64,000 bases of DNA from Arcobacter acticola (GTDB lineage Bacteria > Campylobacterota > Campylobacteria > Campylobacterales > Arcobacteraceae): contig NZ_CP042652.1 of the NCBI RefSeq assembly GCF_013177675.1, forward strand, positions 992,001-1,056,000. The letters are read 5' to 3'. The notes below the pieces were generated by a model that saw nothing but the letters and a program-made list of their open reading frames with translations, was not told the origin of the DNA and did not search any database. Every line of letters starts with the position of its first letter. The first letter of the stretch is position 1. The position numbers and the translations under genes are program-made. Positions 44,999 to 54,554 of the stretch are shown here, piece after piece.

Positions 44999-47900
44999 AT
45001 GTTAATTGACAATAAAAAGAATAATAAAGTAGGCGAAGTATTAAAAGAACATATTTCTAATAATAGTAAGTTATCTATCATTTCAGGGTATTTCACTCTT
45101 CAAGGATATAAACATTTACAAAAAGAACTTAATAAAATAGATGAAATAAGACTTCTAATTAGTTCTAATACTTTTAAAAACAATCTAAATCTTTTAACTT
45201 CTACAAAAGAAGAATTAAAATTAAAGAATAAACTTCAACAAGAAAAAATAGCCAAAGAGTGTTATGAGTGGTTAAAGAATAAATCTCAAATTAGAGAATC
45301 AAAAATCAATAATTCTATACCATTTACTTTATATCATACAAAAAATCAAGGAGAGAATGATTTTGTAATTCAAGGAACTTCAAATTTCTCTTCTGATGGA
45401 TTAGGTTATACTCATTCAAATACTTTTTCAATGAATACTGGAATAAGTGATTATGAAACTACAAAAGAGTTTTTAAATACATTTAATGAGTTATGGAATA
45501 ATCCTACATTAGTATCTGATATAAAAGAAAAAGTTCTAAATAATTTAGAAGAAATATTTAAAGATAAATCACCTAATCTTTTATATTTTATAACTTTATA
45601 TAATATCTTTAAAGATTTTATTGGTGAGTTAGATGAAGAAGAGATAATTAAAACTAAAACTGGTTTCAAAGACACTATTGTTTGGAATAAACTTTATAAC
45701 TTTCAAAAAGATGGTGTTCTTGGTTCTATTGATAAACTTGAAAAATATAATGGTTGTATTATTGCTGATTCTGTTGGACTTGGTAAAACTTTTGAAGCAT
45801 TAGCAGTTATTAAATATTATGAATTAAGAAATGATAGAGTTTTAGTTTTATGTCCTAAAAAATTAAGAGAGAATTGGACTTTATATACTATCAATGATAG
45901 AAGGAATATATTATCAGAAGATAGATTTAATTATGATGTACTTAATCATACAGATTTAACAAGAGAAAAAGGTTACAGTGGAGAAATCAATTTATCTACT
46001 TTAAATTGGGAAAATTATGATTTAATTGTAATAGATGAATCTCATAATTTTAGAAACACTTCAACTAACAAAAAAAAGAATAAATCAAGATATGAAAAAC
46101 TTTTAGAAGATGTTCTTAAAAAAGGTGTTAAAACAAAAGTTTTAATGTTAAGTGCTACGCCTGTAAATAATAGATTGAATGACTTAAAAAATCAACTTCA
46201 ATTTATTACAGAAGGTAATGATAACTCATTTAGAGATTTTGGTATTAATTCAATTGAAATGACTTTGAGAAGAGCACAAAATAAATTTAATAAATGGTTG
46301 GATTTAAGTGATGAAAAAAGAAATACAAAATCATTATTAGATAGTTTGGATTTTGACTATTTTAAACTACTTGATTTAATTACAATCGCAAGAAGTAGAA
46401 AACATATTCAAAAGTATTACAATACAAAAGATATAGGTGAATTTCCTACAAGATTAAAACCTATAAATATTAAATCTGATATAGATACAGAAGATAAGTT
46501 TCCACCATTAAGTGAGATAAATAAAACTATTAGAAAAATGACTTTGTGTGCTTATTCTCCATTAAGATATGTATTACCTCACAAACAACAAGAGTATGAA
46601 GATAAGTATGACACTATCACTTCAAAAGGTAGATTTAGACAAGTAGATAGGGAAAATTCTATTATTCATTTAATGAGAGTAAATTTATTAAAAAGAATGG
46701 AAAGTTCTATTAATTCATTTACTTTAACAGTTCAAAAAGTATTAAATAAGAATTTAGAATTATTAGAACATATCAATACTCAAAGAGAAGATATTTTAGA
46801 AGAAATGAGTATTGTTGATATTGATATTGAAAGTGATGAATTTGCTGATAAACTTATTGGTAATAATGTAAAAGTTTTAATATCTGATATTGATATTATT
46901 AAATGGAAACAAGATATTAATAATGATATTGAGAAACTTGAAGAGTTATTAGAATACTCAATACAAGTTAATACTCAAAGAGATAAAAAACTTTTAACTC
47001 TAAAAGAGAATATTCAACATAAAATTCAAAATCCTTTAAATGAAAACAATAAGAAAGTAATCATATTTACTGCTTTTGCTGATACGGCACAATATCTATA
47101 TGATAATATCTCACAATGGGGAAAAGGATTAGGAGTTGAAAGTTGCTTAATAACTGGTAGTGGAATTAATCAATCAACACTATTTCCAAAAGAGAGAGAT
47201 TTAAATACTTTACTTACACACTTTTCACCTATATCAAAAGATAGAGGGAAAATTGATCCTTCTCAAACAAAAGAGATTGATATATTAATCGCTACTGATT
47301 GTATTAGTGAAGGACAAAACTTACAAGATTGTGATTATTTAGTAAATTATGATATTCATTGGAATCCAGTTAGAATTATTCAAAGATTTGGTAGGGTAGA
47401 TAGATTAGGAAGTAAAAATAAATATATTCAGTTAGTTAATTTTTGGGCAAATATGGAACTTGATGAATATATTAATCTTGAAAGTAGAGTTAGTGGTAGA
47501 ATGGTATTACTTGATGTATCTGCTACTGGTGAAGAGAATGTTATTGATACTTCTAATAAAGAGATGAATGATTTATCATATAGGTCAAAACAATTAAAAG
47601 AACTTCAAAATCAAGTTGTAGATTTAGAAGATGTTAATGGTGGTATATCAATTACAGATTTAACATTAAATGATTTTAGAATGGATTTATCTAATTATAT
47701 GAAAGAACACTCTTCATTACTTGAAAGAACTCCAAGTGGTATATATTCAATTGTATTAAATGACAATAGTGAATTTATAGAGCAGTTTGGGAAAGGTGTA
47801 ATTTTTTGTATAAAAATGTTAGGAGAGATTGACAACACTAACAATGATAAATTTTCATTAGAACCATACTATTTAGTATTCATTGATGAAAAAGGAGACA

Positions 47901-48190
47901 TTAAGTTGGACTTTTCAAATGCTAAACTTATATTAGATTTTATGAAGAAAATGAGTTTAGGTAATGATGAACCAAATATTGAATTATTTGATAATTTTAG
48001 AAGTGAAACAAAAAATGGTAATGATATGGAACATTATATAGATTGTTTAAATACTGCTATTGAAAGTATTGTAGGTAAAAAAGAAGAAAAAGGTTTATCT
48101 ACACTATTTAGTCGTGGTGGAACAAATATATCAACAAATAACACACCTAAACAAGAGTTTGAATTAATATCTTATATGATAGTTAAATAA
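44999..48190 (+). CDS. PLD-SNF2-type helicase, defence-operon large subunit
   Basis: 1063 residues. Residues ~1-175 form a phospholipase-D-like domain with a HxK...GTSNFS half-site (H113, K115). Residues ~225-520 carry helicase motifs: ADSVGLGKT (Walker A, ~256-264), DESHNF (II), MLSATPVNNR (III). Residues ~690-870 carry the second RecA lobe ending in DYLVNYDIHWNPVRIIQRFGR (motif VI). This SNF2-type translocase layout occurs in DNA-defence loci. It opens an operon with Mod and Res. PLD nuclease activity is not certain from one half-site, although dimerisation could complete it. Confidence 0.85.
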   Translation: MLIDNKKNNKVGEVLKEHISNNSKLSIISGYFTLQGYKHLQKELNKIDEIRLLISSNTFKNNLNLLTSTKEELKLKNKLQQEKIAKECYEWLKNKSQIRESKINNSIPFTLYHTKNQGENDFVIQGTSNFSSDGLGYTHSNTFSMNTGISDYETTKEFLNTFNELWNNPTLVSDIKEKVLNNLEEIFKDKSPNLLYFITLYNIFKDFIGELDEEEIIKTKTGFKDTIVWNKLYNFQKDGVLGSIDKLEKYNGCIIADSVGLGKTFEALAVIKYYELRNDRVLVLCPKKLRENWTLYTINDRRNILSEDRFNYDVLNHTDLTREKGYSGEINLSTLNWENYDLIVIDESHNFRNTSTNKKKNKSRYEKLLEDVLKKGVKTKVLMLSATPVNNRLNDLKNQLQFITEGNDNSFRDFGINSIEMTLRRAQNKFNKWLDLSDEKRNTKSLLDSLDFDYFKLLDLITIARSRKHIQKYYNTKDIGEFPTRLKPINIKSDIDTEDKFPPLSEINKTIRKMTLCAYSPLRYVLPHKQQEYEDKYDTITSKGRFRQVDRENSIIHLMRVNLLKRMESSINSFTLTVQKVLNKNLELLEHINTQREDILEEMSIVDIDIESDEFADKLIGNNVKVLISDIDIIKWKQDINNDIEKLEELLEYSIQVNTQRDKKLLTLKENIQHKIQNPLNENNKKVIIFTAFADTAQYLYDNISQWGKGLGVESCLITGSGINQSTLFPKERDLNTLLTHFSPISKDRGKIDPSQTKEIDILIATDCISEGQNLQDCDYLVNYDIHWNPVRIIQRFGRVDRLGSKNKYIQLVNFWANMELDEYINLESRVSGRMVLLDVSATGEENVIDTSNKEMNDLSYRSKQLKELQNQVVDLEDVNGGISITDLTLNDFRMDLSNYMKEHSSLLERTPSGIYSIVLNDNSEFIEQFGKGVIFCIKMLGEIDNTNNDKFSLEPYYLVFIDEKGDIKLDFSNAKLILDFMKKMSLGNDEPNIELFDNFRSETKNGNDMEHYIDCLNTAIESIVGKKEEKGLSTLFSRGGTNISTNNTPKQEFELISYMIVK

Positions 48191-54500: not shown

Positions 54501-54554
54501 GATGTAGAATTAAAACAAGCAAGTAGTTTAGGGAATTTAATGGAGAAGATTTAG
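51540..54554 (+). CDS. Type III restriction enzyme subunit (Res)
   Basis: 1004 residues. Helicase lobe 1 carries [15 protein letters not shown] (Walker A, ~93-100) and [11 protein letters not shown] (DExx box); lobe 2 carries [22 protein letters not shown] and [12 protein letters not shown]. The C-terminal PD-(D/E)xK nuclease is visible as YNPDWAVLI then LYFVVESKG (~residues 935-960). Full length with intact motifs, so active restriction is expected. Last gene of the operon. Confidence 0.93.
   Translation: [1004 protein letters not shown]

Follow-up and report, generated by a model that had tools for sequence, protein, structure and literature searches.

Classical type III restriction-modification enzymes work with two subunits, Mod and Res, which suffice, require two head-to-head sites and cut about 25 bp away; their Mod marks one strand only. 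The stretch of DNA considered here (the window) comprises 64,000 nucleotides of the Arcobacter acticola contig NZ_CP042652.1 (positions 992,001 to 1,056,000), and it holds an operon in which an SNF2-type motor and a DUF4391 protein are encoded ahead of a type III pair. We know of no role for an SNF2 motor or for DUF4391 in classical type III systems. With a probability of about 0.5, the four core genes of this operon encode an extended form of type III restriction-modification, in which the motor and DUF4391 would extend the reach of Mod-Res. Gene content, gene order and the retention or loss of motifs are read directly from the loci, and the step inferred from them, the extension of reach, is the most likely of the readings considered.

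Several described systems combine similar parts. Type III ATPases act mainly as switches, and the ATPases of type I/ISP enzymes and of the type IV enzyme SauUSI translocate (PMC7913695). SauUSI forms its dimer interface through PLD domains, retains the HxK(X)4E motif and recognizes modified DNA through an SRA domain (PMC7913695). Methylase-bearing restriction operons in which an HKD domain is fused to an SF2 helicase were described by Iyer (2008; PMC2292703), and HKD-helicase fusions are also a feature of the CxC-ABC/PbeABCD systems (PMC10853773). In the BREX-related type 2 system (BR-2), an HKD domain described as the effector nuclease is fused N-terminally to a Swi2/Snf2 helicase and accompanied by an N6-methylase and a small protein with a domain of unknown function (DUF), the system having a DUF499 ATPase and DUF3780 (Rakesh and Krishnan, 2026; PMC12839542). 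The HKD-helicase fusion in restriction operons is therefore not new, having been known since 2008 (PMC2292703) and occurring also in BR-2 and PbeABCD.

Gene content and co-occurrence of the operon

Five co-directional open reading frames (ORFs) lie on the + strand at window positions 44999-54554, where the initial annotation had placed them (Table 1). Their junctions are, in order, +17, +1, -4 and +2 bp; the 4-bp overlap and the 2- and 17-bp gaps given earlier are correct, while the range of 2 to 17 bp misses a gap of 1 bp. Mod aligns with EcoP15I Mod (4zcf_A, residues 15-642, E 1.4e-65) and Res with EcoP15I Res (4zcf_C, residues 53-992, E 3e-64), so that both subunits are covered over most of their length and the claim of a complete type III pair is borne out, the pair being EcoP15I-like by alignment. 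Motif counts were taken from length-filtered proteins, broken copies not included. DPPY is present in 67/67 Mods, and the Walker and DEPQ residues are kept in 66/66 Res, except one threonine, kept in 64/66. The PD-(D/E)xK nuclease residues are found in nearly all of the same Res set (n = 66; D in 65, E in 64, K in 65).

Table 1. Features of the operon and of the integrative element that carries it (window positions).
Feature	Position	Strand	Evidence
SNF2/RapA-like motor, N-terminal degenerate (pseudo) PLD domain, 1063 amino acids (aa), core gene 1	44999..48190	+	PADLOC C3a139
196-aa protein (U196), locus-specific, non-core	48208..48798	+	open and co-directional only; no family match
DUF4391 protein, 246 aa, GTG start, core gene 2	48800..49540	+	PF14335, E 5.9e-50
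Type III Mod (DPPY), core gene 3	49537..51537	+	PF01555; PADLOC MTase_III, 719 bits; EcoP15I Mod 4zcf_A
Type III Res, SF2 ATPase and C-terminal PD-(D/E)xK nuclease, core gene 4	51540..54554	+	PF04851, PF19778; REase_III, 1072 bits; EcoP15I Res 4zcf_C
Tyrosine integrase of the element	54592..56124	-	PF00589, E 1.5e-17
xth-like gene, intact; element inserted at its 3' end	56257..57042	-	remnant alignment and relatives
Displaced xth 3'-end remnant, far end of the element	35928..36050	-	own-genome search, E 5.9e-13

The motor belongs to the PADLOC family C3a139 'HKD+Snf2' (PDLC01075), which it matches at 456 bits, the next-best PADLOC family being DrmD at 142 bits. Pfam gives helicase- and NTPase-type families only and has no match for its PLD domain. 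Walker A (GLGKT), the DEAH-type box (DESH) and motif VI (QRFGR) are intact in 88/88 homologues. The DUF4391 protein matches PF14335 at 170.8 bits (cut-off 29.9) over the whole domain (1-232 of 232), and has no PADLOC match.

GTDB contigs were scanned with the motor alignment as anchor, and the best 80 of 566 relatives place the family in Pseudomonadota, Bacillota, Bacteroidota, many further phyla and one archaeon. Where at least 7.5 kb lies downstream (59 loci), DUF4391, Mod and Res follow in this order and without a change of strand in 58; Mod accompanies the motor and DUF4391 in all 59 and Res does so in 58, the exception being a Methanobrevibacter locus without Res (L102). Motor, Mod and Res are each single-frame in 55 of the 58 ordered loci, at least one of them being split in the other three (L081, L092, L147). 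DUF4391 is present in 71 of the 72 loci with at least 700 bp downstream (exception, L128). One Caproiciproducens locus carries a tandem pair of DUF4391 genes (L096, 13256-14679).

A plasmid search anchored on DUF4391, which avoids the bias of anchoring on the motor, matched 48 records. In all 40 of those listed the motor lies next to DUF4391 (35 by coordinates and 5 by annotation, one of the latter, L197, with its motor broken by an insertion sequence), a count that concerns this adjacency and not the record-by-record presence of Mod and Res. Two further plasmid listings hold 60 of 107 records and, for Res, 60 of 126. Among the 60 listed Res-anchored records, the motor is found in 48 (46 shared with the motor list and 2 by annotation), and Res and motor lie within about 10 kb of each other in the 46 shared records, on opposite strands in one (LR962462). 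Two others carry a DrmD-like SNF2 protein instead of the pseudo-PLD motor, five have no motor (L201, L203, L206, L207 and L208, the last with a 53-aa DUF4391 remnant), and five were outside the examination (CP142861, NZ_CP095282, NZ_CP005085, CP140146, NZ_CP069372).

Within the phylum of the window, 397 genomes were surveyed. DUF4391 was found in 20 (16 exceeding the cut-off), and 12 have a C3a139 match of more than 400 bits, the next match reaching 239 bits only. DUF4391 adjoins the motor in 10 of these 12 genomes, and in the remaining two (G249, G086) that place is a contig edge. All four core genes stand in order in nine loci (the window, L025-L030, L033 and L036, the last counted as complete with its DUF4391 taken from the DUF4391 survey), while L032, which is the same locus as L071, has the motor and DUF4391 and then the contig end. 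Decayed loci also occur, with a 97-aa motor remnant (L031), with other remnants (L034, L035, L037, L039), or with Mod and Res intact and DUF4391 fragmented (L040). The 16 Res matches above 900 bits comprise the nine complete loci, one with a motor remnant, one with DUF4391 fragments, three stopped by contig ends and two (G029, G031) without motor and DUF4391, in which Mod is split in two frames.

The gene-neighborhood check proposed in the initial annotation thus finds the motor, DUF4391, Mod and Res together, and the random association of the helicase with mod/res that it named as its refuting case is contradicted by a fixed order and near-constant co-occurrence. The association is non-random, far beyond chance. 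In the loci examined the relation looks one-sided: the motor and DUF4391 keep to Mod-Res, and Mod-Res exists without both.

The core genes are not equally spaced. The motor-DUF4391 junction has a median of -4 bp and is at most 60 bp in 71 of 75 loci, and gaps above 300 bp occur between DUF4391 and Mod in 16/67 loci and between Mod and Res in 27/61. These gaps hold 76 ORFs, 55 of them unclustered by BLAST. The slot proteins scanned (n = 66) were U196, 14 proteins from phylum loci chosen by eye, and 51 from GTDB loci, the latter drawn from 57 ORFs of at least 100 aa by omitting six on the opposite strand. The commonest Pfam families are RhuM and DUF1016_N (4 each) and YhcG_C, GmrSD_N, Fic, SLFN_AlbA_2 and HATPase_c_4 (3 each); DarT, RloB, HipA_C, KAP and SMODS-4TM occur once, and the PADLOC candidates PDC-S02, S05 and S23 recur. 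These are family counts, and describing the proteins as 'effectors' is a reading that applies to part of the 66 only.

U196 itself occupies the rarest slot, that between motor and DUF4391; of 75 other loci, 4 have this slot filled. No family of Pfam, PADLOC or NCBIfam matches U196, and relatives were found neither in 297 other phylum genomes nor in plasmids, nor in the ORFs of the 96 loci anchored on motor or DUF4391. Since no counterpart was found in other loci, its gene is counted as non-core, and the single five-gene unit of the initial annotation gives way to a core that, from these comparisons, consists of four genes: SNF2 motor, DUF4391, Mod and Res.

The PLD domain, DUF4391 and the Res lineage

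The initial annotation counted the PLD-like domain of the motor among its defense parts, and an active nuclease there was considered and rejected. The alignment used comprised 88 family rows (87 distinct) and nine of 18 comparison helicases (L053-L070), all 18 of which have HxK and GSSN. The relationship between the two groups is seen in a profile of the motor's N-terminal region, which finds the N-terminus of L053 (E 5e-24), where the PLD domain has HAK...GSSN. At the aligned catalytic positions, His is present in 3 of the 88 family rows, Lys in 3 and the Asn of GSxN in 10; the active-site His and Lys are kept together in 1 of 87 distinct proteins, which is not that of the window, where Pro and Thr replace them. 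A plain motif search for HxK matches 5/88, among them HTK at residues 113-115 of the window motor; the aligned catalytic position is five residues upstream of this HTK, which was likewise rejected as the catalytic motif.

These replacements indicate that the PLD-like domain of the motor family is very probably dead, and judging by motif retention Res holds the only intact nuclease found in the system. The PLD nuclease site is probably ancestral and was lost in nearly all members, though not universally given one exception (L100, below). A type III lineage may thus have captured a PLD-SNF2 protein with an active nuclease and retained it as a motor. A structural role for the domain after the loss of catalysis is plausible by analogy, because PLD domains hold the SauUSI dimer together (PMC7913695). 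The L053 motor adjoins a 1165-aa protein with weak N6-methylase matches (L151; Pfam E 2e-5 to 9e-5), and this pair of a canonical-HxK PLD SNF2 protein and its neighbor (L151, 7129-13842) may be a two-gene relative that retains the nuclease.

Structural models place the motor near known SNF2 proteins. Its model is of moderate quality, with a predicted local distance difference test score (pLDDT) of 79.4 and a predicted template modeling score (pTM) of 0.60; RapA, whose PDB title refers to recycling RNA polymerase, is its first Foldseek match, and chromatin remodelers such as ISW1 head the VIA-align results (Z about 18). The AlphaFold2 model of DUF4391, made with 64 sequences, has a mean pLDDT of 96.8 and consists of an alpha+beta domain followed by a C-terminal helical hairpin. 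A Foldseek search of this fold against the PDB and BFVD gave no match at E ≤ 0.001, and the VIA-align rows match the helical hairpin only, so that the first domain was barely probed. In the plasmid records DUF4391 occurs with the pseudo-PLD motor and not beside DrmD-like SNF2 variants, which makes the pseudo-PLD domain a good guess for the DUF4391 docking site. Full-text searches for this family found one paper, in which DUF4391 is a list entry, given as commoner in Actinomyces strains nonpermissive to the epibiont TM7x (1/10, 3/3 and 1/10 by group; PMC7784981).

Coevolution was measured from pairwise-distance matrices of 61 loci, as raw distances that include host-phylogeny signal. The correlations were 0.890 for motor-DUF4391, 0.877 for motor-Res, 0.836 for DUF4391-Res, 0.830 for Mod-Res, 0.793 for motor-Mod and 0.765 for DUF4391-Mod, compared with a highest value of 0.223 for any pair in 500 shuffles, and the partial correlation of DUF4391-Mod given the motor was 0.21. 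In the Res tree, a branch of length 1.07 with support of 0.70 separates a clade of 66 system Res and nine others from more distant type III Res of Campylobacterota (n = 7). A single origin of the system is not resolved by this tree, because nine non-system sequences sit inside the clade, three of them (L159, L165, L167) from pairs without a motor seen.

Possible mechanism and its rivals

In the extended type III system proposed here, Mod would methylate one asymmetric site as the self mark, and Mod-Res would find unmarked sites and cut them through the PD-(D/E)xK domain of Res. The classical type III ATPase serves mainly as a switch for sliding and is no long-range motor. True double-stranded DNA translocation would come from the SNF2 protein, its dead PLD domain probably providing for dimerization or docking and DUF4391 for the coupling. 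Such a motor could clear bound proteins or drive Mod-Res between sites, and could permit cutting where classical type III enzymes cannot cut, at single or wrongly oriented sites. The DUF4391-Mod and Mod-Res gaps might then be docking slots for back-up effectors. The stronger form of this proposal would make the system a separate type III branch, in which an added translocase on a dead PLD domain and a DUF4391 adaptor change the basic rule: a lone site or wrongly oriented ones would suffice for cutting or blocking phage DNA, or protein roadblocks would be passed, and the slots would hold exchangeable back-up effectors; this form is tentative, the balance leaning against it.

Some observations weigh against the extended type III reading. 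Intact Mod-Res pairs of the same clade occur without motor or DUF4391 in Thiodictyon and A. veronii, and such pairs imply that Mod-Res may work alone. Neither motor nor DUF4391 was found in any of ten lower-scoring Campylobacterota type III control loci (L159-L168; the L167 contig starts at Mod), and the ten genomes have no DUF4391 match and no strong C3a139 match elsewhere. A Syntrophomonadaceae protein (L100, 3-3158, on a 3.3-kb contig too short to show its neighbors) is the sole row of the 87 distinct ones with both His and Lys and GSSN. The distance correlations, whose partial values agree with a chain running from DUF4391 through motor and Res to Mod, were not controlled for host phylogeny and count as supporting evidence only. 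The case as a whole is built from sequence comparison and single-protein models.

The nearest named families of the motor are the SNF2 motors of DISARM, BREX and Dpd (PADLOC and NCBIfam cross-matches), and this would suit an arrangement of two arms under one self mark, in which a classical Mod-Res stands beside a separate DISARM- or BREX-like arm of motor and DUF4391 that blocks unmarked phage DNA without cutting and relies on Mod methylation for self-recognition only. A dead PLD domain, which would leave such an arm unable to cut, and the existence of Mod-Res without the other two genes agree with this arrangement. It is nevertheless unlikely, given that the motor and DUF4391 are so constantly accompanied by both Mod and Res in the usable GTDB loci and that motor distances correlate more strongly with Res than with Mod. 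The likeness of the motor to RapA and to ISW1-type remodelers raises a further alternative, that motor and DUF4391 do not boost restriction but control it, by limiting Res or setting its timing, for instance so that no self-cutting follows replication or so that Mod-Res is recycled. Newly replicated sites would be unmarked, given single-strand marking by Mod, so that a need for such control is conceivable; the same-clade stand-alone pairs seem to do without it, and this explanation is more doubtful still. Simple co-residence in a defense island, with genes that travel together and share no function, could account for the genes between the core genes, which vary from locus to locus. It hardly accounts for stop codons that overlap the next start, or for core genes that co-occur almost without exception in many phyla and have variable genes in their gaps, and it is nearly excluded because the order of the core genes is fixed.

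Some support for the extended type III reading comes from the DrmD-like SNF2 protein mentioned above (949 aa, distantly related to the motor, without PLD or DUF4391), which stands beside a Mod-like methylase in 8/8 plasmid records found, although the methylase match is weak (80-115 bits) in five of them. Two of these proteins were scanned and matched PADLOC DrmD at 706 and 713 bits, and that of L204 reaches 713.5 bits against a cut-off of 950 for NCBIfam DrmD_b. A related Res is present in four records (L204, L205, L214 in pieces and L213 weakly), and the other four have an annotated DEAD/DEAH protein without a match to the related Res. This parallel pairing modestly supports the view that type III-like systems benefit from having an SNF2 motor. 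In two of the records (L204, 2838-11976; L205, 4044-11991) the DrmD-like protein stands in for motor and DUF4391 before a type III Mod-Res.

Type III enzymes are the textbook case of an ATPase used as a switch, and a widespread version with an SNF2-type motor would make this rule testable within one system. If the reading is true, it would give DUF4391 a first role and the 'HKD+Snf2' family a place. The system occurs naturally in Escherichia coli, and can thus be tested in laboratory strains: 10 of 5426 genomes match one copy, nine of them with at least 80% of it, ten of the places being on plasmids and one on a chromosome. One E. coli copy is found in NZ_OP242248.1.

Genomic setting and comparison with known systems

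The window copy rides an integrative element of about 20 kb inserted at the 3' end of a gene which we take to be xth (exonuclease III family). The displaced remnant at the far end is about 81% identical to the intact 3' end over 99 alignment columns, and it is this remnant that defines the element ends; a direct-repeat search for attachment (att) sites gave weak repeats only. In 3 of 19 relatives (L170-L172) the xth gene is followed within about 10 bp by a methyltransferase gene, which in the window lies beyond the remnant; the other 16 have no match to that gene in the xth flank, up to 1.5 kb. In addition to its tyrosine integrase, the element carries a Rep-like gene, an ArdC-like antirestriction protein (40532-41548), present on the same element as the restriction system, and a single ORF (37792-39768) in which a D12-class N6-adenine methylase is fused to a C5-cytosine methylase.

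Elsewhere in the window, at 14589-18028, a chemotaxis-receptor-like gene has its 3' part repeated next to a 546-aa ORF (16028-17668), presumably transposase-like: the C-terminus of a 411-aa ORF recurs in a 115-aa ORF (17681-18028). A second ORF that we assume to be transposase-like (within 20816-22527) has as its neighbor a RhuM gene truncated to 120 aa (Pfam match positions 1-53 of 252). Other copies of the system are also on mobile elements. The one E. coli copy examined, on pLAO18, appears from its flank to reside on an SSU5-like phage-plasmid: a neighboring 3.3-kb stretch matches phage SSU5 at 96% identity along 60% of the stretch, and Escherichia phage Cyrano at 88% identity from end to end. 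This copy (L191, 3154-12215) combines the four-gene system with SSU5-like phage genes and may serve in phage-phage competition. On an Acinetobacter gerneri plasmid (L189, 1-16530) the system directly follows Tn7-like genes for TnsA, a Mu-type transposase, TniB and TniQ.

No description of the motor-DUF4391-Mod-Res set was found in the open literature searched, most subscription journals lying outside that search, and the parts of PMC2292703 and PMC10853773 examined do not mention DUF4391 together with a complete Mod-Res pair. The database records inspected name the parts separately, as 'helicase-related' or 'SNF2-related protein', 'DUF4391', 'site-specific DNA-methyltransferase' and 'DEAD/DEAH box helicase' or 'type III endonuclease', and neither the five window proteins nor the four encoded by an E. 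coli copy reach the cut-off of any NCBIfam model. For these two reasons the set has probably been overlooked, either counted as plain type III or missed.

The initial annotation proposed a composite, DISARM-like defense machine. Its composite nature is upheld insofar as the type III pair is almost always accompanied upstream by DUF4391 wherever the motor occurs, which makes it more than plain Mod-Res; its DISARM-like character is not. Like DISARM (DrmD, DrmC), the operon combines a broadly DrmD/RapA-type SNF2 motor, a PLD fold and a DNA methylase. Unlike DISARM, its PLD domain is fused to the motor and degenerate, a type III Res is present, and Pfam scans of ten and then eight window proteins found no DUF1998 protein (DrmA/DrmB-type). 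The motor reaches 167.6 bits with the DrmD model NF038317 (cut-off 610) and 107.6 bits with NF038318 (cut-off 950), and its cross-match to a PADLOC model labeled DrmA, at 104 bits, is below those to DrmD and C3a139. Membership in DISARM was rejected for want of a DUF1998 protein and of a DrmD-level score.

BR-2 is similar in having an HKD-type domain N-terminal to a Swi2/Snf2 helicase, an N6-methylase and a small DUF protein. It differs in that the DUF499 ATPase and DUF3780 were not found in a Pfam scan of the window operon, whose HKD domain is degenerate and whose nuclease is Res, and membership was rejected on this gene content. A DUF3780 search of 200 genomes had no match anywhere, controls included, and so adds nothing to the operon scan. 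The older HKD-helicase operons have, in the parts considered, MORC ATPases, or CxC-ABC ATPase and DndE-like partners instead (PMC2292703, PMC10853773). SauUSI and CglI/NgoAVII share the combination of a PLD domain with an SF2 ATPase (PMC7913695, PMC5737866), but in contrast to SauUSI, as described there, the motor has lost HxK and specificity would be supplied by Mod. PADLOC C3a139 is the motor's own family, for which the search gives a protein label only.

Among the closest counterparts is EcoP15I, with whose subunits Mod and Res align and whose catalytic motifs they keep, and the difference is the near-constant SNF2 motor and DUF4391 upstream. On gene content and motifs, the system is classed with type III restriction-modification, and not with DISARM, BR-2 or the PLD nuclease systems.

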